From positions 186,001-250,000 of the forward strand of contig NZ_RKQK01000003.1 in assembly GCF_003814915.1 (NCBI RefSeq): DNA of 64,000 bases, in the 5' to 3' direction. This DNA comes from Pacificibacter maritimus (GTDB taxonomy: Bacteria > Pseudomonadota > Alphaproteobacteria > Rhodobacterales > Rhodobacteraceae). A program made the translations under genes and the position numbers. Positions 10,831 through 64,000 of this stretch are shown one piece after another. The notes under the pieces were generated by a model. The model made no database searches. It had not been told where the DNA came from and saw nothing but the letters and a program-made list of their open reading frames with translations. The first letter of the stretch is position 1. Each line of letters starts with the position of its first letter.

Positions 10831-11706
10831 ATGACCCGTCTGATCCAATCCCTGTCTGATATTTCTACCAATTATGATGCTTTGTTTGTCGATCTTTGGG
10901 GCTGTGTCCACAACGGGATCGAGGCGTTTCCTGAGGCTGTGAAAGCCTTGCAAGACTACCGCAAAGCTGGTGGCATTGTGATCTTGGTCACAAACTCCCC
11001 CCGCCCGTGGCGTTCGGTGGCAACGCAGATGCTGGGCTTTGGGGTGCCCGAAGATGCTTATGACGCGATTGCGACATCTGGCGATTCCGCGCGCACAGCA
11101 ATGCATATGGGCGCAGTGGGGGAAAAGGTTTTCCACATAGGCACCCCCGAAGAAGTCGAGGTGTTCTTTGCCCCAAGCGACATTTTGACGGATGCAATTG
11201 ATGTGACCACAGTGCCACTTGAAGAGGCCGAAGGCATCGTATGCACGGGTGCGCGTGCCACAGATGGATCGCTTGATATCTATCGCCCAGAATTTCTATA
11301 CGCCAAGCAAAAGGGCCTAAAACTGCTCTGCGCCAACCCCGATATCGTGGTGGATCGCGGTGAGACCCGCGAATGGTGCGCTGGCGCTTTGGCTCAACTT
11401 TACACTGAAATGGGGGGCGAAAGCCTGTATTTCGGTAAACCACATCCGCCCATCTATGATCTTGCGCGCCGTCATTTGGTCAAAATCGCGCATATCGATG
11501 ACGCGAAAATTCTATGTATCGGCGATGGTATTGGTACGGATGTCAAAGGCGCGATTGGTGAAGGTTTGGATGTCTTGTTTATCACGGGCGGCTTGGCGGC
11601 GGATGAATTCGGCCCCGATCACGTCAATCCCGATCCAGAACGCCTGACATCTTGGCTGATCGAACAACAGATGGCACCAGCTGCCGCGATTTCATTTTTG
11701 CGCTAA
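10831..11706 (+). CDS. HAD-superfamily class IIA hydrolase (TIGR01459 type)
   Basis: A 291-residue phosphatase-like protein of the NagD/PGPase-like HAD IIA group. Motif I is FVDLWGCVHNG (residues 20-30), motif II is LVTNSPRP, the cap region follows, and motif IV reads CIGDGIGTDVKGA. Its length and motifs match the alphaproteobacterial TIGR01459 subfamily, whose substrate is not established. It lies just upstream of ribF in the same direction, a pairing common in this group. A role in flavin phosphate metabolism is only a guess. Confidence 0.88.
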   Translation: MTRLIQSLSDISTNYDALFVDLWGCVHNGIEAFPEAVKALQDYRKAGGIVILVTNSPRPWRSVATQMLGFGVPEDAYDAIATSGDSARTAMHMGAVGEKVFHIGTPEEVEVFFAPSDILTDAIDVTTVPLEEAEGIVCTGARATDGSLDIYRPEFLYAKQKGLKLLCANPDIVVDRGETREWCAGALAQLYTEMGGESLYFGKPHPPIYDLARRHLVKIAHIDDAKILCIGDGIGTDVKGAIGEGLDVLFITGGLAADEFGPDHVNPDPERLTSWLIEQQMAPAAAISFLR

Positions 11707-11794
11707 CAGAGTTGGCCTCGACTTGATCGCAGGCCCGCCCTAACTGATACCCATATTGCGGCACTTTTAACGGGCCGTTCGCGAGGATCCCCTT

Positions 11795-12721
11795 ATGCAA
11801 ACGCACACGCATTGGACCAAAGTTCCAAAATCCGCTCATGGCGCCAGCGCCGCGATTGGCAATTTCGACGGTGTCCATCTTGGTCATTGCGCTGTGATCG
11901 ATATTGCGCGCCAACATGGTCCGCTGGGCATCGTCACCTTCGAGCCGCATCCCCGCGACTATTTTGCCCCTCACAGCAAGCCCTTTCGTATTATGAATGT
12001 GGAATCCAAAAAGAACCGTTTGGAAAAGATCGGGGTGGAACAGCTGTTTCAACTGCCTTTTGATGGCCAGCTTGCATCAAAAACCCCCGAAGAATTCGCC
12101 CGAGAAATTATCGTTGAAGGATTGGGTCTAAGCCATGTTGTTGTCGGTGCAGACTTTTGCTTTGGCAAAGGGCGCACAGGCACGGCGCAAGATTTGGTGC
12201 GTTTTGGTGAAGATATGGGATTTGGCGTGACCATCGCGCCTTTGCTGAAAACCGAAACAGGAATTTCATCATCATCGGCCATCCGCGAGGCTTTAACAGA
12301 TGGGCGCATGTCGCACGCCAAGGAAATGCTGGGCCATTGGCATCGCATCGAAGGCGCGGTGAACCACGGCGACAAGCGCGGGCGTGACCTTGGGTTTCCC
12401 ACAGCCAATATGTCTATCGATGGATTGCACGCGCCAAAATTTGGTGTTTATGCCGTCTTCGTGGATGTGCTGACAGGCTCGCATCAAGGCAGCTATCAAG
12501 GGGCCGCGTCTCTTGGCGTAAAACCAACCTTTGGGGCCAATGTGCCTTGCTTGGAAAGTTACATCTTTGATTTCGAAGGTGATTTATACGGCGAACACCT
12601 ATCTGTTGCTTTCGTTGAATTTTTACGTGGCGAAGAAAAGTTCAACGACTTGGATGATCTGATCACACAAATGCATGCCGATTGCGACAAAGCGCGGCGC
12701 ATTTTGAGCAATGAAATATGA
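11795..12721 (+). CDS. ribF: Bifunctional riboflavin kinase/FAD synthetase
   Basis: Makes FMN and then FAD from riboflavin. The N-terminal adenylyltransferase domain has AIGNFDGVHLGH (about residues 21-32) and ISSSSAIREAL. The C-terminal kinase domain has GDKRGRDLGFPTAN and FGVKPTF-like ASLGVKPTFG. Its length of 308 is normal. The TGA stop overlaps the ATG of the following YcgN-like gene (ATGA). Confidence 0.96.
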   Translation: MQTHTHWTKVPKSAHGASAAIGNFDGVHLGHCAVIDIARQHGPLGIVTFEPHPRDYFAPHSKPFRIMNVESKKNRLEKIGVEQLFQLPFDGQLASKTPEEFAREIIVEGLGLSHVVVGADFCFGKGRTGTAQDLVRFGEDMGFGVTIAPLLKTETGISSSSAIREALTDGRMSHAKEMLGHWHRIEGAVNHGDKRGRDLGFPTANMSIDGLHAPKFGVYAVFVDVLTGSHQGSYQGAASLGVKPTFGANVPCLESYIFDFEGDLYGEHLSVAFVEFLRGEEKFNDLDDLITQMHADCDKARRILSNEI

Positions 12722-54744: not shown

Positions 54745-54821
54745 GGCGGAGTAGCTCAGTTGGTTAGAGCAGCGGAATCATAATCCGCGTGTCGGGGGTT
54801 CAAGTCCCTCCTCCGCTACCA
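54745..54821 (+). tRNA. tRNA-Met (CAT anticodon, elongator type)
   Basis: Full cloverleaf: acceptor GGCGGAG with CTCCGCT (one G-U pair), D-arm GCTC...GAGC, anticodon stem GCGGA/TCCGC around loop ATCATAA (anticodon CAT), T-arm with TTCAAGT loop, and encoded CCA. The loop and the G-U first pair argue against initiator tRNA. A CAT anticodon can also belong to the lysidine-modified tRNA-Ile, but the body matches alphaproteobacterial elongator Met. It marks the left edge of the accessory island. Confidence 0.93.
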
Positions 54822-56046
54822 TATCCCTACATCAATGCATTGAATTAGCAGGCCTTTTTAAGGGACCTTGATTCCTTCCCACCATTTTACCCACACTTAG
54901 GGAAATTGTTTTCAGCGCTTCATGCTCCGACCTCCCAAAAGAATCCGTACCCTCAACGAGCACTCGGCGGGCGAAGATTATAGAACCCATTGTTCATCAC
55001 TCTTTCCAAGACAATCACCGACACAAAGAAATTGCCGCTGCCCACTATGAAAGTGGACGATTCCACTCATGGCGACACGGGTAACTTAGAATTGCAGCAA
55101 ACAGGACTCTCTATCTAGATAACCGGACCATTTTGTCCTTTTAAGACAAAGATATAGAACACTTCTGGCCAACGATGATCGCCTTCCGCAAAGAGACACC
55201 TCCATTGCGTATTCTACTCACCCAACTCTAAAATGTGGGATGCCTAAATAGGTTTGAGACGGGACATTGGACGCGCGCAAGGCCTACAACGGTCGAAGCT
55301 CCCCCTACGCCCCTGAACCGCTTGAGAGAACCCCCCTAGAACCAATGCACCTCGCTCCGAGAAAGCTACATGAGTAACCGAGCGCACCCGCCATCTCTCT
55401 TTCATTTCGATCTTAAATCGAAGTTGGATCATTGAAGCATTGGCCCACGGCCTTACTAGCATTGGGATTGAGGAGTGCTACAGTGACCGTAACCGACGCC
55501 CCTACCCCCTTTTTTATACCGCCATCGCCCCCCGGCCCCCAAAAATGCCGTTCATGATTGCTCATCCAAGCCTCCGCTCTCGAGGGTTTCCATAAAGGGT
55601 TTGGCTTTCTCGCCTAGTGATGGGGGACCGTACCGTAGAGATTTCGGCACTGCAGATAAATGCGATGAATAAATGTTCCATGCTTTTCGTCCTGTGCAGC
55701 CATTCACCAGAAATTTCGAATTTAGCACCTCGCTCTCCGAAATGCCCCCAATTGCGGAAAAGTTTCATAAACCGCCGAAAAGCGGACACGAAATCATCAT
55801 ATTTTCACAACACTACGCCTAAATATTATCAGTCCCGCCTGCGGCTCTCCTCATCTCGAGATAATCTGTAACTCGCGATAGACTCGAATTATTAGCCATG
55901 GGTCAAAGGCGATGGACCCGCCATCATTCTTCCAATAGGCTTAACATATTGGAAGGCAAAAAGGGATTCAGCATATCGAATTCCCGCCCATTTTAACAGG
56001 TTCGCCTTTGCTTCGGTGGGGCGACCCAAAACGGAAATTGTGTACG
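54822..56046. other. 1.2-kb stretch without a supported gene
   Basis: Short open frames exist (for example minus 55244-55462 and minus 55562-55789), but none has a recognisable domain or a good start. The sequence looks like decayed remnants between the tRNA and the first island gene. A small inverted repeat TTTGTC/GACAAA lies near 55134-55150. The only striking element is the 9-9-9 inverted repeat at 55929-55955. Confidence 0.5.
55929..55955. promoter_or_regulatory. Perfect 9-9-9 inverted repeat, putative operator
   Basis: CTTCCAATA (55929-55937), spacer ggcttaaca, TATTGGAAG (55947-55955). It lies 92 bases upstream of the GHKL gene and no T-run follows, so a repressor site is more likely than a terminator. 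Its half-sites differ from CIRCE despite the same spacing. Confidence 0.5.
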
Positions 56047-58239
56047 ATGCTGAGCGAGGCAAGAAAGCTTACTTTTCAACCGAGAGCGAAAATCATTCGA
56101 ACAATCGGTGATCAGCTTATTAGCGGTCCAGAGGCCGCGATAATTGAACTCGTCAAAAACTCTTATGATGCAGATGCAAGCTATGTTTCAGTTAAGTTTT
56201 TTCCACCTCTGGACGAAGGTGAGTGCCGCATTGAAGTATCGGATGACGGGCATGGAATGACTTTGGATGACATCCGACAGAAGTGGATGGAACCTGCCAC
56301 AGCTTCAAAGGCCAAGCAAAGGCTGACTAGGTCGAAGAACCGGAAGGTCATGGGTTCAAAAGGGATTGGGCGTTTTGCCTCAGCAAAGCTTGGTGACATA
56401 ATGTCACTTGTTTCGACGGCAGAAGATGATGGGCGATTGCAAACAATCCTCATTCCAGAACTGGATTGGTCGATTTTCACTGATGATGTCTACTTGCATG
56501 ACATCGAAATTGACTACATTTCCCAACCTGCATTTGACAACACTGGCACACTAATTGAGATCAGAAATGCAAAACAGACTTGGAATGAAGCACGCCTGAA
56601 ACAACTGCACTTGGAACTCAGAAAACTAGTGTCCCCACGAGAATTTCTTGATGATAAGGACCCAGATTTTAAAATTTTTCTTGACCTATCATTGTGCACG
56701 AAGAGCACCTGCGGCTTTGCAGGTGATCAAATTGTTACCGCAAGCGATGATCAAAAACCGGATGACAAGCATCGTGTCTTAGCGTTTCCGGTGCTAACGG
56801 CCTGTGACTATGAGCTCATCGGAAGCTTTGACAAAGTTGGTAAGTTCGAAGGAACATTCCAAATAAAACGTGCGGGCCGTGCCCCCGAAACAATATCAAT
56901 TGAAGCACCAAAAAGTGATGAAGTGCTCTCACCTGGAGCATTCCATGTTCAAATCTCAATCTTTGATCGTGAGCCTGAGACAATAAAGAAAAATATGGAG
57001 GCTGCAGGTATGAGTAAAACGACTGCAGCCGAAGCGAAGAAGATGCTGGATAGCATTGCCGGGGTTTCGATATTCCGAAATGGCTTTCGTATTAGACCTT
57101 ACGGGGACAGCCAAAATGACTGGCTAACCTTAGATTCTCGCCGAGTTCAGAACCCGTCCATGAAAATCGGACGCAATCAAATCTCCGGAATCATTTCAGT
57201 TGGAGATCAACATGACACAGATCTTCTCGAACGTAGCAGCCGGGAAGGATTTGAGGATAACGCAGCATTTCAACGACTTACAGCTCTCGTTTTGCTCTTG
57301 TTGGATCAATTTGCAGAACCGAAGAGGTACGCTTTTCGAAGTGATACCGGGATTGCCCGGAAAAGAGATGTCACCTTCGACGAGACGCGTGAGCTAGCAG
57401 AACTGGCAAAAATTCGAAAGTTGGTTTCAACGCTCGAACCCAAGGAACGGGCGCAAGCAGAACATGTTATTTCTGAGCAATCTGCGAAACTTCAGGATCG
57501 CATCGACCAGCTCCAAGAGAGGCATAGGATACTGGAGGCTACGTCTTCTTTGGGAGCAATTGTTGGCGAGGTTTTGCATGAAGGTAGCCCGGCTGCGCGC
57601 TACATAGCTGAAGCTTCAGACCAACTATTACTGAGGTACAAATCGCTCCTTGAAGGCAAAGGCCCAGGGTTTGAGGCTAGTAAAAAGGCTTTTTCACGGA
57701 AGTTGCCGTTCATCAAAGACTACGGTTTCAAACTCAACAGCCTTTTTGTGAACTTGGAGCCCTTGGCCGGTGGCAAACGGGGAAAACCGCAATTTTTCTA
57801 CCCAGGCAGGACGATTGACAGCGCTAGAGAGCTCTTTGCTAGCCACAACATCCCAATCGAAACTATTTCAGAGACGACCAATCTTGAACTTCTGGGATAC
57901 CCTTCTGATCTTTCTACTGCAGTTTTGAACATCATTGGGAACTCGATTTATTGGTTAACCGAACATAAGATCCCGATGCCATGCGTCAAAGTGAAAATCA
58001 GTCGCGATGGCGACAATGCCATCATCTTGATTGAAGATAATGGACCAGGAGTACCTGCAGAATTCGCTGAGCAAATATTTGAGGTTGGGTTTTCGCTAAA
58101 AAACGGTGGTACCGGTTTGGGCCTCAATATAGCGAGGGAAACCCTTGCTCGATCTGGGGCGAAGCTATTCTTCCACGAAGGATTCGTGGGGGGAACACAA
58201 TTTGAGATTAGATTTCCAGCCAAGAAGATAAGCACATGA
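56047..58239 (+). CDS. Dual GHKL ATPase: Hsp90/MutL-like N-terminus plus histidine-kinase-like C-terminus
   Basis: A 730-residue cytoplasmic protein. The N-terminal GHL domain shows AAIIELVKNSYDADA (Glu34, Asn38), SDDGHGM and GSKGIGRFASAKLG, as in MutL/Hsp90/MORC ATPases. A middle domain of unknown fold follows. A coiled coil (about 455-500) leads into LGAIVGEVLHEGSPAARY, where His511 sits in a HisKA-like H-E-x-x-P context. The C-terminal kinase ATPase has N-box VLNIIGNSIYWL, G1 EDNGPGVP and G2 GTGLGLNIARE. Its stop overlaps the receiver gene (ATGA), which argues for a phosphorelay pair. The frame extends to a TTG at 56008, but the ATG at 56047 is preferred. Confidence 0.85.
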   Translation: MLSEARKLTFQPRAKIIRTIGDQLISGPEAAIIELVKNSYDADASYVSVKFFPPLDEGECRIEVSDDGHGMTLDDIRQKWMEPATASKAKQRLTRSKNRKVMGSKGIGRFASAKLGDIMSLVSTAEDDGRLQTILIPELDWSIFTDDVYLHDIEIDYISQPAFDNTGTLIEIRNAKQTWNEARLKQLHLELRKLVSPREFLDDKDPDFKIFLDLSLCTKSTCGFAGDQIVTASDDQKPDDKHRVLAFPVLTACDYELIGSFDKVGKFEGTFQIKRAGRAPETISIEAPKSDEVLSPGAFHVQISIFDREPETIKKNMEAAGMSKTTAAEAKKMLDSIAGVSIFRNGFRIRPYGDSQNDWLTLDSRRVQNPSMKIGRNQISGIISVGDQHDTDLLERSSREGFEDNAAFQRLTALVLLLLDQFAEPKRYAFRSDTGIARKRDVTFDETRELAELAKIRKLVSTLEPKERAQAEHVISEQSAKLQDRIDQLQERHRILEATSSLGAIVGEVLHEGSPAARYIAEASDQLLLRYKSLLEGKGPGFEASKKAFSRKLPFIKDYGFKLNSLFVNLEPLAGGKRGKPQFFYPGRTIDSARELFASHNIPIETISETTNLELLGYPSDLSTAVLNIIGNSIYWLTEHKIPMPCVKVKISRDGDNAIILIEDNGPGVPAEFAEQIFEVGFSLKNGGTGLGLNIARETLARSGAKLFFHEGFVGGTQFEIRFPAKKIST

Positions 58240-59318
58240 ATTATTTAGATATTTTGATCCTAGACGATGACCTAGCGATGATTGATTTGTTCGAAACATC
58301 CGTTGAGACATGGAACGCAGACAACAATGAAAACGGAAAACACCTCAATGTAATACATGCCGAAAGTTTGCTTCGAGCCCATCAAAGTAGATTTGATGCA
58401 GCGATCGTAGATTTGAGGCTACCTGACAAGAACAATAAGGGCAGCTCCGCTGACAATGGCAATGAATTTGCTGCTTCAATGGTGAATTCACGGGGCATCC
58501 CTGTTGCGGTGGTATCGGGGCACGTAGTTGAGCTATCGGCAGAGCTGGAAGAACTGGAGCATTTCCAAAAATTTTCCAAAAATTACGGATATGGCCCAGT
58601 CGTAGACTGGCTGTCAGAACAATGGGACTTGATGGCAACTTTACGGAAATCTAGAGAACAAATCGAAGTTGCCAGCGCTGAGGTTTTTTCGAAAAGGCTG
58701 TGGCCGCAATGGCAAGATAACCCTGCCTTGTCCGGCAATAGTCCAGACCGTCAAGCAAAAATAGTGACCCGGCAGTTTGCCAGCCATATTTCTGATCTAC
58801 TTGGCCTCGACAACGATCAAAACCCTGACTGGCACCCTTATGAGAACTACATTGTTCCTGCATTGACGTCTGAAAGAACTCACACAGGTGACCTGTTCAA
58901 TCTGGACGATGAAATATGGATTGTGCTTAGCCCGCAGTGTGACATGGCAAACGCAAGTGTGCCGAACGTACTTTTGGCTAAATGCACACAAGGTAATGAT
59001 CAATGGACAACTCACATTGATAGACTAAAAGCTACGCCAGAAAATGAAAAGTCGAGGAAACAAATCAAGAGATTCGTTGACCAAGATTATTCGAAGTCCA
59101 AACACTTCTTGCCTCCACTACCCGGTAAAGACGCACCCTTGTTGGTTGATTTCTCCGTTATTCAAACCATACCCCTTACTGAGCTGAATGAGATTCTTGA
59201 TCATCGACTTGGCTCTGTTTCCACCCCCTTTTTAAGCAACCTAATACAAAGGTTTGGAGCGTTCGTCAGTAGAACTGGCCAGCCCAACATTGATATCGTG
59301 CACTTTTTTGAAATCTAG
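58236..59318 (+). CDS. Receiver-domain protein with unrecognised C-terminal domain
   Basis: A 360-residue protein. Residues 1-about 125 form a response-regulator receiver: acidic pocket Asp10-12 (LILDDDLAM), phospho-acceptor Asp59 in AAIVDLRLPD, Ser in VAVVSGH, and a Lys near FSKNYGYGP. The loop after Asp59 carries an insert (NNKGSSADNGNE). The remaining 235 residues match no domain known to me. Notable segments are DEIWIVLSPQCDMANAS, HFLPPLPGKDAPLLVDF and STPFLSNLIQRFGAFVSRTGQP. No helix-turn-helix is visible, so the output is probably not transcriptional. It is coupled to the GHKL gene. Confidence 0.82.
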   Translation: MNYLDILILDDDLAMIDLFETSVETWNADNNENGKHLNVIHAESLLRAHQSRFDAAIVDLRLPDKNNKGSSADNGNEFAASMVNSRGIPVAVVSGHVVELSAELEELEHFQKFSKNYGYGPVVDWLSEQWDLMATLRKSREQIEVASAEVFSKRLWPQWQDNPALSGNSPDRQAKIVTRQFASHISDLLGLDNDQNPDWHPYENYIVPALTSERTHTGDLFNLDDEIWIVLSPQCDMANASVPNVLLAKCTQGNDQWTTHIDRLKATPENEKSRKQIKRFVDQDYSKSKHFLPPLPGKDAPLLVDFSVIQTIPLTELNEILDHRLGSVSTPFLSNLIQRFGAFVSRTGQPNIDIVHFFEI

Positions 59319-59440: not shown

Positions 59441-60229
59441 TCACGATCTAAGTGCATCCCGCTTCAAAATAGCATGAACGAGCCTGTGGCAGTTGGCACA
59501 GAGGCACTCCAAGTCCTCCAACTGTGTCATGTGGCCTTCGAGCATGTTTGCCACTTCTGTCACACTGTGGTGAACTTCGATACAGGCTTCGGCAACTGGA
59601 TCACTGTAATGGGCTACGGGATCAAGTTTGCAGCGTTCGCAAAATAGTTTTCCATTTTCGCGGATAAATGCTTCTTTTTTCGCCCGAGCTAGCCCTCTGG
59701 AACGCTCCCGCCGCAGATGCGAAACTAGGACTGGCTTCCCTTCCGTCCAAATCTGCTCGGTAGAGGAGAGATGGGACCGTCGTCTTATTCCATGGTCACC
59801 GGGTCTTCTCTTCGTAAGTTCTAGCAGGTCTTCAACTGTTGCTTCAAAAAAGCTGAACTTAAGCCTTTTGTTAGCGTTCCCCGTATGCAGCTTAGTTTTA
59901 TCAACTTTTCCAACCGCCTGCATTCGTTTGCTAACGAGAGTAAAAAGCTGTTCTGTTGGGGTATTGTCAATTTCCTCAACAGACAATACTCGCCGATCAT
60001 CTAGGGATAACCCTTGCACCCGACTGCTATCCACAAAAGCCTCGAGGAAGTCACAATCTTGCTCGTGAAGGCGTTTCAAAAGTAGCCTCAAACCGCGTGA
60101 GTAGTCTGTATTTTTGGCTCGGTCAGTTCCCTTTGTTCCACCGCGACTTTGAAGTGTTAGTGAGTTTTCCTCAATCTCTACAAACGCATCGATGGATCGC
60201 TCGTCATCTTCACAAATTTGAGTTTCCAA
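59441..60229 (-). CDS. HNH endonuclease, likely restriction partner
   Basis: A 262-residue protein. The N-terminal 180 residues are unrecognised and charged. The C-terminus is an HNH nuclease: CERC around residue 196, a gap, then IEVHHSVTEVANM (His220-His221), a central Asn/Cys region and CLCANCHRLVHA (Asn246, His248). The start is TTG, supported by an AGGAGG site seven bases upstream. It lies 42 bases downstream of the cytosine methyltransferase on the same strand, the layout of a type II restriction-modification operon. Confidence 0.85.
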   Translation of the reverse strand: METQICEDDERSIDAFVEIEENSLTLQSRGGTKGTDRAKNTDYSRGLRLLLKRLHEQDCDFLEAFVDSSRVQGLSLDDRRVLSVEEIDNTPTEQLFTLVSKRMQAVGKVDKTKLHTGNANKRLKFSFFEATVEDLLELTKRRPGDHGIRRRSHLSSTEQIWTEGKPVLVSHLRRERSRGLARAKKEAFIRENGKLFCERCKLDPVAHYSDPVAEACIEVHHSVTEVANMLEGHMTQLEDLECLCANCHRLVHAILKRDALRS

Positions 60230-60271: not shown

Positions 60272-61813
60272 TTACTCATTCCGATGAATCCATTCGAAAA
60301 CCGGCCAGATTGCTTTTGCGACTTGCTTTGCCAAATACGGAGGAACAGCATTGCCTACCTGCACAAACTGCTCGGTCCGATTGCCCAAGAAATGATAGTT
60401 ATCAGGGAACGTTTGCAGTCTAGCCGCCTCGCGCACTGTCAAGCTTCGGCATTGCGATGCGTCCGGGTGAATATAGTAGTGCCCATCTTTAGAAATATGG
60501 CTTGTTACGGTCGTCCCTGGCGAATTCCAACTTTGGACGCGAAAACGATCGCTAAACTTACCGCTTTCCCAATTTGCATGGTTGGGAGCGAGGCTTGCTG
60601 GGAACTCTTTGGCTTTAGGGCTCCTTTTCTCAGCATGCGTGAAACAGCTCGCATACAAGTAGCGAGCAAGGTCAGATCTCATGTGACCACGCGTTTCGTT
60701 ACATGAGAGCCCTATTATTGCCTCATCGTGCAGGAAGGATTTTAGATCTTCACTGATACTCTTGGGATATTTTCCATGCTTAGTGGATTTACGTGATTTG
60801 TTTTGTTTCAAGTTGGCGGATGCAACTCGGTTGAGCTCTTTTAGAAACTTTCCCTTGTTTGCCCCCGCGTACTCATGTGTTCCTTCGCCAACCGCCGTGA
60901 GAGCTTCAGATAGCGCCGAGAACCAACTTGTTCTATCATCATTACGGCTAAGGCCGCTTCGGAGTTTCGGCATACACTGCAGAACGTCCTTAACCTTTGA
61001 TTTACTCGCATGCTTTGGGATTGTGGGCAAAACATCAGCAGGAAGCTTTTCAGAGATCGAACGTTTTATCCCAACTATAATTACCCTGTGACGAGCTTGA
61101 GGCACTCCAAACTCTTCTGACTTTAGAACAAAATCTCTTGGGTCAGGCCGACCAAAGCGAGGCTCTTTGCCAGATAACGCAAACAGCTGATAGCCTTCTC
61201 CTGCCATTTCAAGGTCATTTAGAACAGCGTCAAAAATTCCGGCACCCTCGATGGAAGAAGAGAGCATGCCTTTCACATTCTCCATTACGAAAACACTTGG
61301 CGAAAACTCGGAAAGCACGCGACAGTACTCTTTATACAGGAAATGCCGTTGGTCTTTGCTCGGAGTATAGTCCTTAACACCCAAATTACGCGACCTCCCG
61401 ACCAAGGAGTACGCTTGGCAAGGTGGGCCACCAATGAGTAGCGTTTGCCGTTGAGATGTTTCCTTTATTGTTTGAATCTTTGCTGCCAACGCAACAGCAG
61501 TTTCGGGTGTACCGAGCTCAGCGTGCCAAGTTTCTTCGACCGCAGCATTCCACTCAGCTGGGTACAATGCTGGCCAATCCGGAAATTCAACATTGCCAGC
61601 CAAAAACTCATAGTAAACGTCCGGAATTTTTTCAAACTGCCTTAAGAATGCACGCAGACGTAGGGTCTTATGAGCCGCAGCATCCTTTTCAATAGAAACC
61701 CCTAAGTGATACTTCAGTATGTGTTGCTCAGCCGTGTAGGCGCAAAAACCTTCACCTAGACCTCCAGGACCTGAGAACAAATCAACAATATGAATTTTGG
61801 AACTCACCGCCAC
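60272..61813 (-). CDS. DNA (cytosine-5-)-methyltransferase
   Basis: A 513-residue enzyme methylating cytosine C5 in DNA. Motifs in order: I (VDLFSGPGGLGEGF, near residue 10), IV with catalytic Cys132 (GGPPCQAYS), VI (FVMENVKGM), VIII (QARHRVIIVG), IX (RSLTVREAARLQTFPD) and X (QVGNAVPP). The target-recognition region is about residues 260-420; its DNA sequence specificity cannot be read. The start is GTG at 61813 or 61807. It is followed by the HNH nuclease. Confidence 0.95.
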   Translation of the reverse strand: MAVSSKIHIVDLFSGPGGLGEGFCAYTAEQHILKYHLGVSIEKDAAAHKTLRLRAFLRQFEKIPDVYYEFLAGNVEFPDWPALYPAEWNAAVEETWHAELGTPETAVALAAKIQTIKETSQRQTLLIGGPPCQAYSLVGRSRNLGVKDYTPSKDQRHFLYKEYCRVLSEFSPSVFVMENVKGMLSSSIEGAGIFDAVLNDLEMAGEGYQLFALSGKEPRFGRPDPRDFVLKSEEFGVPQARHRVIIVGIKRSISEKLPADVLPTIPKHASKSKVKDVLQCMPKLRSGLSRNDDRTSWFSALSEALTAVGEGTHEYAGANKGKFLKELNRVASANLKQNKSRKSTKHGKYPKSISEDLKSFLHDEAIIGLSCNETRGHMRSDLARYLYASCFTHAEKRSPKAKEFPASLAPNHANWESGKFSDRFRVQSWNSPGTTVTSHISKDGHYYIHPDASQCRSLTVREAARLQTFPDNYHFLGNRTEQFVQVGNAVPPYLAKQVAKAIWPVFEWIHRNE

Positions 61814-62306: not shown

Positions 62307-62368
62307 CTATGACGTGTTTATCTTGTTTGTCATGAAATTGACGACGTTTCTGTCTCCGTCATGATGAC
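62242..62368. repeat. Cluster of ATGAC/GTCAT motifs, partly as inverted pairs
   Basis: Seven copies in 127 bases: 62243-62247, 62275-62279, 62287-62291, 62309-62313, 62329-62333, 62358-62362 and 62364-62368. Two form inverted pairs: GTCATC-aattg-GATGAC (62275-62291) and GTCAT-g-ATGAC (62358-62368). The cluster spans the end of the winged-helix gene. It could be a regulator array or iteron-like replication or excision sites. Confidence 0.5.
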
Positions 62369-62843
62369 AGGGTTTTGTTTTCCCGTTCGAGCCGACAGGG
62401 TTATTCGCCCGAGCCTTGCGAACAGGGAATTCGTTGCCTTCCTTCCATGCTTGATAAAGCTGCCGCCCTACATTGCCAGATCCATACGGCAGCGCTATTT
62501 CGGTCAATTCGTACGCTGGCCCTTTTGCATCTCCAAACGAACCTAGGCACCCCGGCTCCGTAACAACCAAGAATCCTTTCGCTTGCAGACAGTGAAAAGC
62601 TTTGGCCGCAGTATTTCTCGAAACTCCGATCATTTCTGCTGCTTGGCGAGTGCTCAAACGGATCTTTCCATTATTGTTAGCATTCGGTCCACGCCATTCT
62701 AGTTTGAGCCATGGGTAAAGCGCCTGTGCAACCGGCGAAAGCGCACGCCACGCTTCGGTTTGCATCATTCTACGAATTAATTTCGCAAAGTGTTCCGTTT
62801 CTGGTCCGCGCCCAAGATTTGTTCGTGTGTTCTTTCTAGTCAT
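62307..62843 (-). CDS. Winged-helix DNA-binding protein of integrative elements
   Basis: A 178-residue basic protein. An N-terminal helical part (EHFAKLIRRMMQTEAWRALSPVAQALYPWLKLEW) leads into a helix-turn-helix with wing (IRLSTRQAAEMIGVSRNTAAKAFHCLQAKGFL, about residues 62-93), then a disordered tail. This layout is common in alphaproteobacterial mobile elements, where such proteins sit near AlpA-like genes; their role (replication or regulation) is unproved. The ATG at 62843 overlaps the stop of the preceding small ORF. Confidence 0.75.
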   Translation of the reverse strand: MTRKNTRTNLGRGPETEHFAKLIRRMMQTEAWRALSPVAQALYPWLKLEWRGPNANNNGKIRLSTRQAAEMIGVSRNTAAKAFHCLQAKGFLVVTEPGCLGSFGDAKGPAYELTEIALPYGSGNVGRQLYQAWKEGNEFPVRKARANNPVGSNGKTKPCHHDGDRNVVNFMTNKINTS

Positions 62844-63189
62844 GGCACCACCCAAATCGCTTTTTTTCGATTGGCCTAGATCGAGTGGCGGACGGGAAAC
62901 AGGCCTTGAGTCGAAGTTTCGTTTCACTCCGCCAGCGGCCAATCAAAGGGGACCTCTCAGTAAGTCTCTGGCACCTCAAAATCCACTGGTGAAAACCGAT
63001 ACAGTCGATCAAGCGCCAGATACCATCCTGCACCATCACCCAAAGGCAATTGCCAGTTTTTTCTAGAAGGATATTGGTTGACGGCGGATTTGCGAATAGA
63101 TCTGAGGTTGGCAACAGCCCATCAAACTGTATTTTTAACCCAGAACAGGTTTCACATTTCCCTACAGGGAGATTGTCGTTCAAATACAT
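62836..63189 (-). CDS. Hypothetical small protein of the mobile element
   Basis: A 117-residue unrecognised protein. A cysteine pair (KCETCSG) lies near residue 11, and the second half is basic. The ATG at 63189 follows GGAG by four bases and avoids a 47-base overlap with the AlpA gene that the longer frame would give. Its stop overlaps the winged-helix start by eight bases, suggesting coupling. It could still be a chance frame. Confidence 0.42.
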   Translation of the reverse strand: MYLNDNLPVGKCETCSGLKIQFDGLLPTSDLFANPPSTNILLEKTGNCLWVMVQDGIWRLIDCIGFHQWILRCQRLTERSPLIGRWRSETKLRLKACFPSATRSRPIEKKRFGWCHD

Positions 63190-63500: not shown

Positions 63501-64000
63501 TTATTGACCCAACAAAGTCGAGTTCGACAAAAGATCACCATGTTTAATCCAACCAAAATCGCCATTCCCTTTTTTCAAGACCGATGTAATCAGGTCGGGA
63601 GAAGGCACACTGTCGGCACTCTCTAAAAGTGTCGGATGATTGTTCAACTCGTCAGAAAGGCACCTCGCAAACAGTGCCGCCGAATAGTTAAACCCAAGTG
63701 ATTCATAATTAACAGTATTTTCAAAAGCGTTGTATCCGGATGCGACCGCCGCAAAACATTTTTCAGACCATTTTCCAACGTCCTCAGCGCCGCGAAATAT
63801 TTCCCAAATTAAGATATCTCTCGCCAAGCGATCACCAAATCGCCCTCGCTTCGACGGAACATCTGTTTGAATAAATCTCTTAGAAAATGTCCATGCCTCT
63901 TGAGGAATATCGCACGGCTCAACCTGACCAGTAGCAAGATCTGAAAATAATTTAGACAATTGGAGGCGCGCTATTTGGAATATCCGAGGATCTTTATGAG
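63501..64000 (-). CDS. Hypothetical protein, 5' end beyond window
   Basis: The frame is open to the right edge. It reads HKDPRIFQIARLQLSKLF before the first possible TTG start, so the gene continues outside. About 165 residues are visible, ending STLLGQ. No domain is recognised; the visible part is helical with several aromatic residues. Its position ahead of the AlpA gene suggests it belongs to the mobile element. Confidence 0.6.
   Translation of the reverse strand, partial: HKDPRIFQIARLQLSKLFSDLATGQVEPCDIPQEAWTFSKRFIQTDVPSKRGRFGDRLARDILIWEIFRGAEDVGKWSEKCFAAVASGYNAFENTVNYESLGFNYSAALFARCLSDELNNHPTLLESADSVPSPDLITSVLKKGNGDFGWIKHGDLLSNSTLLGQ

Follow-up and report, generated by a model that had tools for sequence, protein, structure and literature searches.

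We analyzed a 64,000-nucleotide stretch of the Pacificibacter maritimus genome (contig NZ_RKQK01000003.1 of the 3.08-Mb assembly GCF_003814915.1; hereafter the window), which carries, on an island beginning at a tRNA gene, a histidine kinase with two GHKL ATPase domains, a receiver protein, an HNH-type protein and a C5-cytosine DNA methyltransferase. The locus lies at about 240745-251700 of the contig, corresponding to window position 54745 to past the window end. The kinase (730 aa; 56047..58239, plus strand) combines an N-terminal MutL/MORC-type ATPase (HATPase_c_3, aa 28-132; 56128..56442, plus; PF13589, 4.3e-23) with a C-terminal histidine-kinase-type ATPase (aa 619-726; 57901..58224, plus; PF02518, 1.6e-23), and between them lies the candidate phospho-donor His511 in an H-E-G-S-P context (codon 57577..57579, plus). 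This arrangement, first proposed in an earlier note made from the letters of the window, is borne out by the Pfam domains and by the His being present in all 22 kinases aligned, across which the key residues of both ATPase sites are also retained; both ATPase families were matched in 13 of 13 kinases. The C-terminal half is similar to common histidine kinases, while residues 17-212 resemble the N-terminus of BbrUII/HgiDII restriction enzymes (NF050001, 7e-23; 81 bits, where the cut-off is 550).

The kinase stop codon overlaps the start of the receiver gene (ATGA; 360 aa, 58236..59318, plus), as the note had also described. The receiver begins with a REC domain (aa 1-128; 58236..58619, plus) containing Asp59 (codon 58410-58412), and the two hallmarks of two-component signaling, a conserved His with a kinase ATPase and a conserved Asp in a REC fold, are both present. 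The N-, G1-, F- and G2-box residues, His511 and Asp59 are conserved across deep divergence. The output domain (aa 205-350; 58848..59285, plus), which bears T/SPxCD and SRxGxP motifs, is predicted to adopt the MazF/CcdB toxin fold. This prediction supplies a structural lead for the suggestion that the C-terminal domain may be an effector. None of 11 receivers matched PF02452 (PemK) at E up to 1, and at the same threshold they contained no Pfam helix-turn-helix domain save a chance-level Myb-like match (0.28). A PADLOC match to the candidate PDC-M60C (0.0037, aa 5-115) spans the REC part only; the available portion of PMC11811056 calls PDC-M60 an unpublished candidate. No report of a receiver-MazF fusion with a methyltransferase turned up in the literature searched, which included few subscription journals.

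Near-full-length relatives of the kinase were found in Roseobacter-type bacteria, in Campylobacter, Hymenobacter, Fusobacterium and Enterobacter plasmid records, and on viral-collection contigs. Their distribution is rare and patchy: 2 of 148 related genomes have a kinase relative (E up to 1e-40), and a receiver profile matched 4 of 398 genomes in a draw from the phylum, the P. maritimus genome being counted in both. Among plasmid records, 47 matched the kinase at 1e-30, 41 of them from Campylobacter; 41 Campylobacter records also matched the receiver, with the kinase match sometimes split into two or three parts. The Campylobacter loci opened (L019 and L046, from 2 of the 41 records) encode dcm, histidine kinase and response regulator together. 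Searching viral contigs with only the window kinase as query returned no relative, and the receiver alignment A2 was too poorly conserved to be a useful viral query.

We next examined the genes around the kinase at 23 loci. The receiver directly adjoins the kinase in 20 of them, and the other three (L012, L014 and L032) end 0-180 bp after the kinase. In 20 of the 23 loci a C5 methyltransferase gene is found no more than 6.5 kb from the kinase, the exceptions being L014, where the kinase runs off the contig, L033 and L020. The methyltransferase profile used for this count was built from 11 proteins, 10 of them from counted loci, which therefore match by construction; an independent check came from Pfam counts in the five whole genomes that carry the pair, where five of six C5-methyltransferase genes (same-frame rows counted once) lie beside it. 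On this last count, chance co-occurrence of kinase and methyltransferase was rejected. At L039 and L041 the three genes overlap in the order methyltransferase, kinase, receiver, forming three-gene operons. A Vsr gene and an EcoRII-like restriction endonuclease gene are also present at L009, L010, L011, L034 and L040. The 23 loci are not independent (L019/L046 and L009/L011 are close pairs), and they include L035, which falls outside the 21-row clade described below, and L032, with a weak methyltransferase match 5.8 kb away. Outside the count are L015 and L016 (kinase-domain matches only), the contig repeats L017, L049, L062 and L063, the loci L043-L045 and L047, the HEF_HK loci L025-L027, the distant phage loci L064-L085, and the loci L100-L104.

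The earlier note had called the pair a candidate undescribed system. This is not supported, as a 2021 paper (Bellieny-Rabelo, PMC8011034) had already reported the general dual-ATPase architecture and its link to C5 methyltransferases under the names HEF_HK/Response_reg_2, with a proposed role in the control of restriction-modification (R-M) systems; in the literature searched, the name HEF_HK appears in PMC8011034 and PMC10663231. Like that family, the window pair has a HATPase_c_3, His-bearing region and HATPase_c kinase and an adjoining receiver with a conserved Asp, relatives have C5-methyltransferase and Vsr neighbors, and the HEF_HK partners at L026 and L027 have a T/SPxCD block in common with the window output domain. 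Unlike that family, the kinase is 730 aa long, compared with 979-993 aa in three true members that we fetched, and the receiver 360 aa, compared with 525-647 aa for their partners. At E up to 1, PF19191 (HEF_HK) matched none of the 13 short-family kinases scanned, and it matched nothing in the P. maritimus genome, although the model detects true members (3 of 289 genomes), and PF19192 (Response_reg_2) matched none of 11 receivers at the same threshold; plain HEF_HK membership was rejected on these grounds. In our kinase tree, where several rows have long branches, the window falls in a supported six-row clade inside a 21-row clade (100/99 each), with three HEF_HK proteins elsewhere. By these sequence comparisons, the family of the window pair is a sister clade of HEF_HK/Response_reg_2.

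Several other known systems resemble parts of the pair. MORC and paraMORC ATPases occur in R-M operons, according to the portion of Iyer 2008 (PMC2292703) available, and share with the window kinase the N-terminal GHKL module and the R-M context; the S5 module that marks paraMORC is only presumed here, from the conserved residues 339-401. Unlike paraMORC, however, the window kinase has a further ATPase, of the histidine-kinase type, and is partnered by a receiver, and the word "receiver" is absent from the main text of PMC2292703. The likeness to BbrUII/HgiDII stops at residue 212 of the window kinase. MazF, PemK and CcdB toxins share the predicted fold of the output domain, but that domain has no sequence-level match to them, has different conserved residues and is fused to a REC domain. 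The available portions of PMC12137116 and PMC12839542 do not describe a pair of the window type, and none of the terms sought was found in PMC10853773. At E up to 1, PADLOC gave no Detocs label to the window proteins, although its library may not contain Detocs. Detocs is a phosphorelay defense of three proteins (DtcABC), with one separate phosphotransfer protein; the idea of a phosphorelay defense is common to both, whereas the window system has two proteins and is tied to a methyltransferase.

The note had further proposed that the N-terminal clamp senses DNA or a phage product; a DNA-sensing clamp gains indirect support from two recognition-type N-terminal fusions in relatives. The L034 kinase (1137 aa) begins with an EcoRII-N-like domain, followed by a helical-looking stretch common to L032 and L033 and then by the usual kinase. 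Over residues 13-165 (153 aa), this kinase shares 61% identity with the N-terminal part of an HNH endonuclease whose gene follows dcm and vsr on a Thauera plasmid (a dcm-vsr-HNH cassette); identity to the Thauera counterparts is 53% for the methyltransferase of L034 and 51% for its Vsr. In a third kinase subfamily, the Rhizobium kinase at L102 has a different N-terminal extension, absent in L100 and L101, that matches an HNH endonuclease of Devosia at 4e-11 (42% over 89 aa), whose gene is located after vsr and a type II restriction endonuclease gene; a related kinase on an Agrobacterium plasmid has an extension of the L102 type (62%). The main reason to suggest that the kinase senses DNA is that a recognition-type domain is twice found on a nuclease in one place and on a kinase in another. 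The L034 recognition domain matched itself alone among viral contigs and the Thauera nuclease alone among plasmids, and PF09217 matched 12 of 398 genomes with no open frame longer than 435 aa, so that no further fusion of PF09217 to a kinase was found in this set. The N-terminal helical extension of L033 had no match among plasmids, and the single PDB match of the L102 extension, to mitochondrial ribosomal L19 at 0.065, was taken as chance.

Beyond the pair, the island encodes on the minus strand a C5 methyltransferase (513 aa; 60272..61813; PF00145, 1.3e-46), the sole one detected in the P. maritimus genome, and an HNH-type protein (262 aa; 59441..60229) with two CxxC pairs and an HH motif (PF01844, 0.017, below cut-off; PADLOC mREase_IV, 3.4e-5). 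As components of a type II R-M system, the methyltransferase is solid, while the HNH match is weak and has no homologue beside the other kinases examined, its own genome alone matching. Consequently, of the methyltransferase and HNH setting that the note had read as a sign of defense, the methyltransferase linkage stands but the window HNH protein seems not to be a regular partner, and we rejected it as a conserved effector; HNH genes of other kinds do occur at some sister-clade loci. Against plasmids (19 records), 14 of the 15 HNH matches listed are confined to aa 144-261. Homologues of the L067 or L071 HNH proteins were likewise not found beside other kinases of the window clade; other HNH types were not searched.

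The note's tRNA-anchored island was confirmed. The final 15 bp (54807-54821) of a tRNA-Met gene (54745..54821, plus; ARAGORN and Rfam) form its left end and are repeated at 65526-65540, past the window end and just beyond a tyrosine integrase (64190-65404, outside the window; PF22022, 1.7e-22; PF13356, 2.6e-18; PF00589, 4.5e-12). Because of this repeat and the integrase, we regard the segment of ~10.7 kb as an integrative island, with the kinase, receiver, HNH-type protein, C5 methyltransferase and small open reading frames as cargo. Between the tRNA and the kinase gene, ~1.2 kb (54822..56046) contains no convincing gene in the open reading frame lists and no Rfam match at the gathering threshold, the Rfam scan having found the tRNA alone. 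The small frames, both on the minus strand, encode 211 aa with weak helix-turn-helix similarity (62307..62942; PF13545, 6.3e-4, below cut-off) and 230 aa with no Pfam match (63501-64193, of which 63501..64000 lies in the window), the latter next to the integrase. GC content is 0.45-0.49 between 55.5 kb and the end of the window, compared with 0.52-0.56 over 48.0-52.5 kb, but the segment around the tRNA and to its left (52.0-55.0 kb) has 0.47-0.51, and the island contrast is therefore not sharp. All 20 genus genomes have a match to this tRNA, and 19 of 20, P. maritimus included, have the gene to the right of the repeat (65697-68219), with no tRNA-Met in the 1.5-kb flanks of that gene at its 19 loci. 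The two are on one contig in 16 genomes, ~10-62 kb apart in 13 (10.9 kb in P. maritimus) and ~0.3, 0.8 and 1.6 Mb apart in the remaining three. As this distance differs so widely, the insertion spot looks variable in the genus and may be an integration hotspot; a clean empty site was not found among the 20 genomes.

Related gene sets extend to sister clades on viral-collection contigs. The methyltransferase profile matches 15 of 23 distant viral loci (L063-L085, L063 being a repeat), anywhere in the locus. At L067 (6565-11557), a kinase and an HNH protein (7.2e-5, above cut-off) are accompanied by two weak matches below cut-off, one to an N6-methylase (0.0022) and one to a receiver (1.9e-4). 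A kinase, a protein that is receiver-like by eye, an HNH protein (by tblastn to that of L067) and an M.Eco57I-type methylase are encoded at L075 (7986-13502) and L085 (201-5695), and kinase, receiver-like and HNH proteins at L079 (7998-11503). The receiver-like proteins at these four loci are short, and the first three loci have an adenine-methyltransferase-type gene. At L081, a 221-aa protein (11220-11885) encoded after the kinase and receiver has no Pfam match and an FLGHGCSNC motif that by eye recalls caspase-like effectors. On plasmids, a Burkholderia locus (L043, 8601-19198) is annotated with a type I M subunit, a dual-GHKL kinase, a response regulator and an MBL-fold protein, with a large helicase after an IS element and annotated anti-phage genes on the same stretch. 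A Chlorohelix plasmid (L047, 9500-14073) encodes a kinase and a 714-aa partner among annotated cysteine desulfurase, DUF4007, PAPS-reductase-family and FtsK genes, and an Agrobacterium plasmid (L044, 9716-14019) a distant kinase-partner pair near an FtsK gene; these two pairs are possibly used with phosphorothioate DNA modification.

Taken together, these data describe a mobile-looking, methyltransferase-linked two-component module, for which the following mechanism is plausible. The C5 methyltransferase would mark self DNA, and the MutL/MORC-type ATPase of the kinase would act as an ATP-driven clamp that engages DNA. On meeting unmodified, foreign DNA, the clamp would close and change the helices around His511, the C-terminal ATPase would phosphorylate His511, and the phosphate would pass to Asp59 of the receiver. 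The MazF/CcdB-like output domain, thereby freed or dimerized, would stop the infection by harming RNA, gyrase or some other target of host or phage, and the HNH protein may contribute DNA cutting. We give about an even chance to the pair being such a signaling arm of an R-M-like system on an integrative island, running from a DNA-sensing clamp kinase through phosphotransfer to an effector. Somewhat short of even is our estimate for a broader form of this model, in which a DNA-recognizing clamp kinase has replaced the nuclease of an R-M cassette, an unmethylated site triggers a phosphorelay to a receiver-MazF-fold toxin that shuts the cell down instead of cutting, and recognition (EcoRII-N-like and another), modification (C5, N6 and perhaps phosphorothioate) and effectors (MazF-like and HNH) are modular.

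Several observations weigh against a DNA-sensing alarm that ends in a toxin. The resemblance to MazF is structural only and sequence methods disagree with it: hhalign of the output domain against nine PemK-family sequences gave a probability of 0.15%, and a PDB sequence search returned nothing at E up to 10. The catalytic Arg of the MazF RPVLV motif seems by eye to be absent. Recognition-domain fusions were seen in two kinase lineages only, the window kinase has none, the EcoRII-N call at L034 is weak (PF09217, 3.3e-4, below cut-off; PDB, 0.16; PADLOC, 0.0055), and the Devosia stretch examined has no annotated methyltransferase. L020 lacks a C5 methyltransferase in flanks of 7.8 and 5.9 kb, as does L033 in 8.0 kb on one side (528 bp on the other), and only 2 of 50,697 named phage records had a match. 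At the five loci with an EcoRII-like restriction endonuclease, the pair may be accessory to that enzyme. These complete R-M sets (C5 methyltransferase, Vsr and endonuclease), the proposal of PMC8011034 and the apparently missing Arg would also fit a pair that regulates an ordinary R-M system, with phosphorylation governing how active or how strongly expressed the methyltransferase or nuclease is (for example, in establishment control) and an output domain that binds protein or DNA in place of a toxin. We consider this unlikely, as L019 and L046 are annotated with methyltransferase, kinase and receiver and no endonuclease next door, none was seen at L039, L041 or L042 (by open reading frame list and a few BLAST queries, the neighbors not being domain-scanned), the 11 receivers scanned show no credible Pfam helix-turn-helix domain, and the EcoRII-N-like domain on a kinase points to DNA sensing.

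The kinase might instead work as a MutL/MORC or BbrUII-type ATPase that loops or clamps DNA for an HNH nuclease, with the receiver as a partner subunit and phosphotransfer vestigial. Its N-terminal similarity to BbrUII/HgiDII, the DNA-looping idea in the available portion of Iyer 2008 and the sets of kinase, receiver-like, HNH and methyltransferase genes at L067, L075 and L085 are in line with this, but conservation of His511, the ATP-binding boxes and Asp59 would be unexpected if phosphotransfer were vestigial, and the HNH types searched do not recur beside the clade's other kinases; we hold it to be quite improbable. Least credible, and disfavored as very improbable, is an ordinary environmental two-component system riding on islands and plasmids. 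The C-terminal half would suit one, but a MutL-type ATPase occupies the sensor position with no other Pfam sensor domain (transmembrane helices were not predicted), the methyltransferase linkage is strong, and the distribution is rare and patchy.

The HEF_HK-type kind of system is known and unexplained, and what is added here is a sister clade, recognition-domain fusions, three-gene operons and a predicted MazF-like fold. If the DNA-sensing alarm is true, a histidine kinase would read DNA methylation as the mark of self, which would join R-M, two-component signaling and toxin biology in one system, provide a methylation-sensing signaling part without DNA cutting, and explain the C5 methyltransferases reported in 2021 beside HEF_HK-type pairs. 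The gene arrangement of the island suggests that bacteria may sense foreign DNA that lacks the mark and relay an internal alarm rather than only cutting it.

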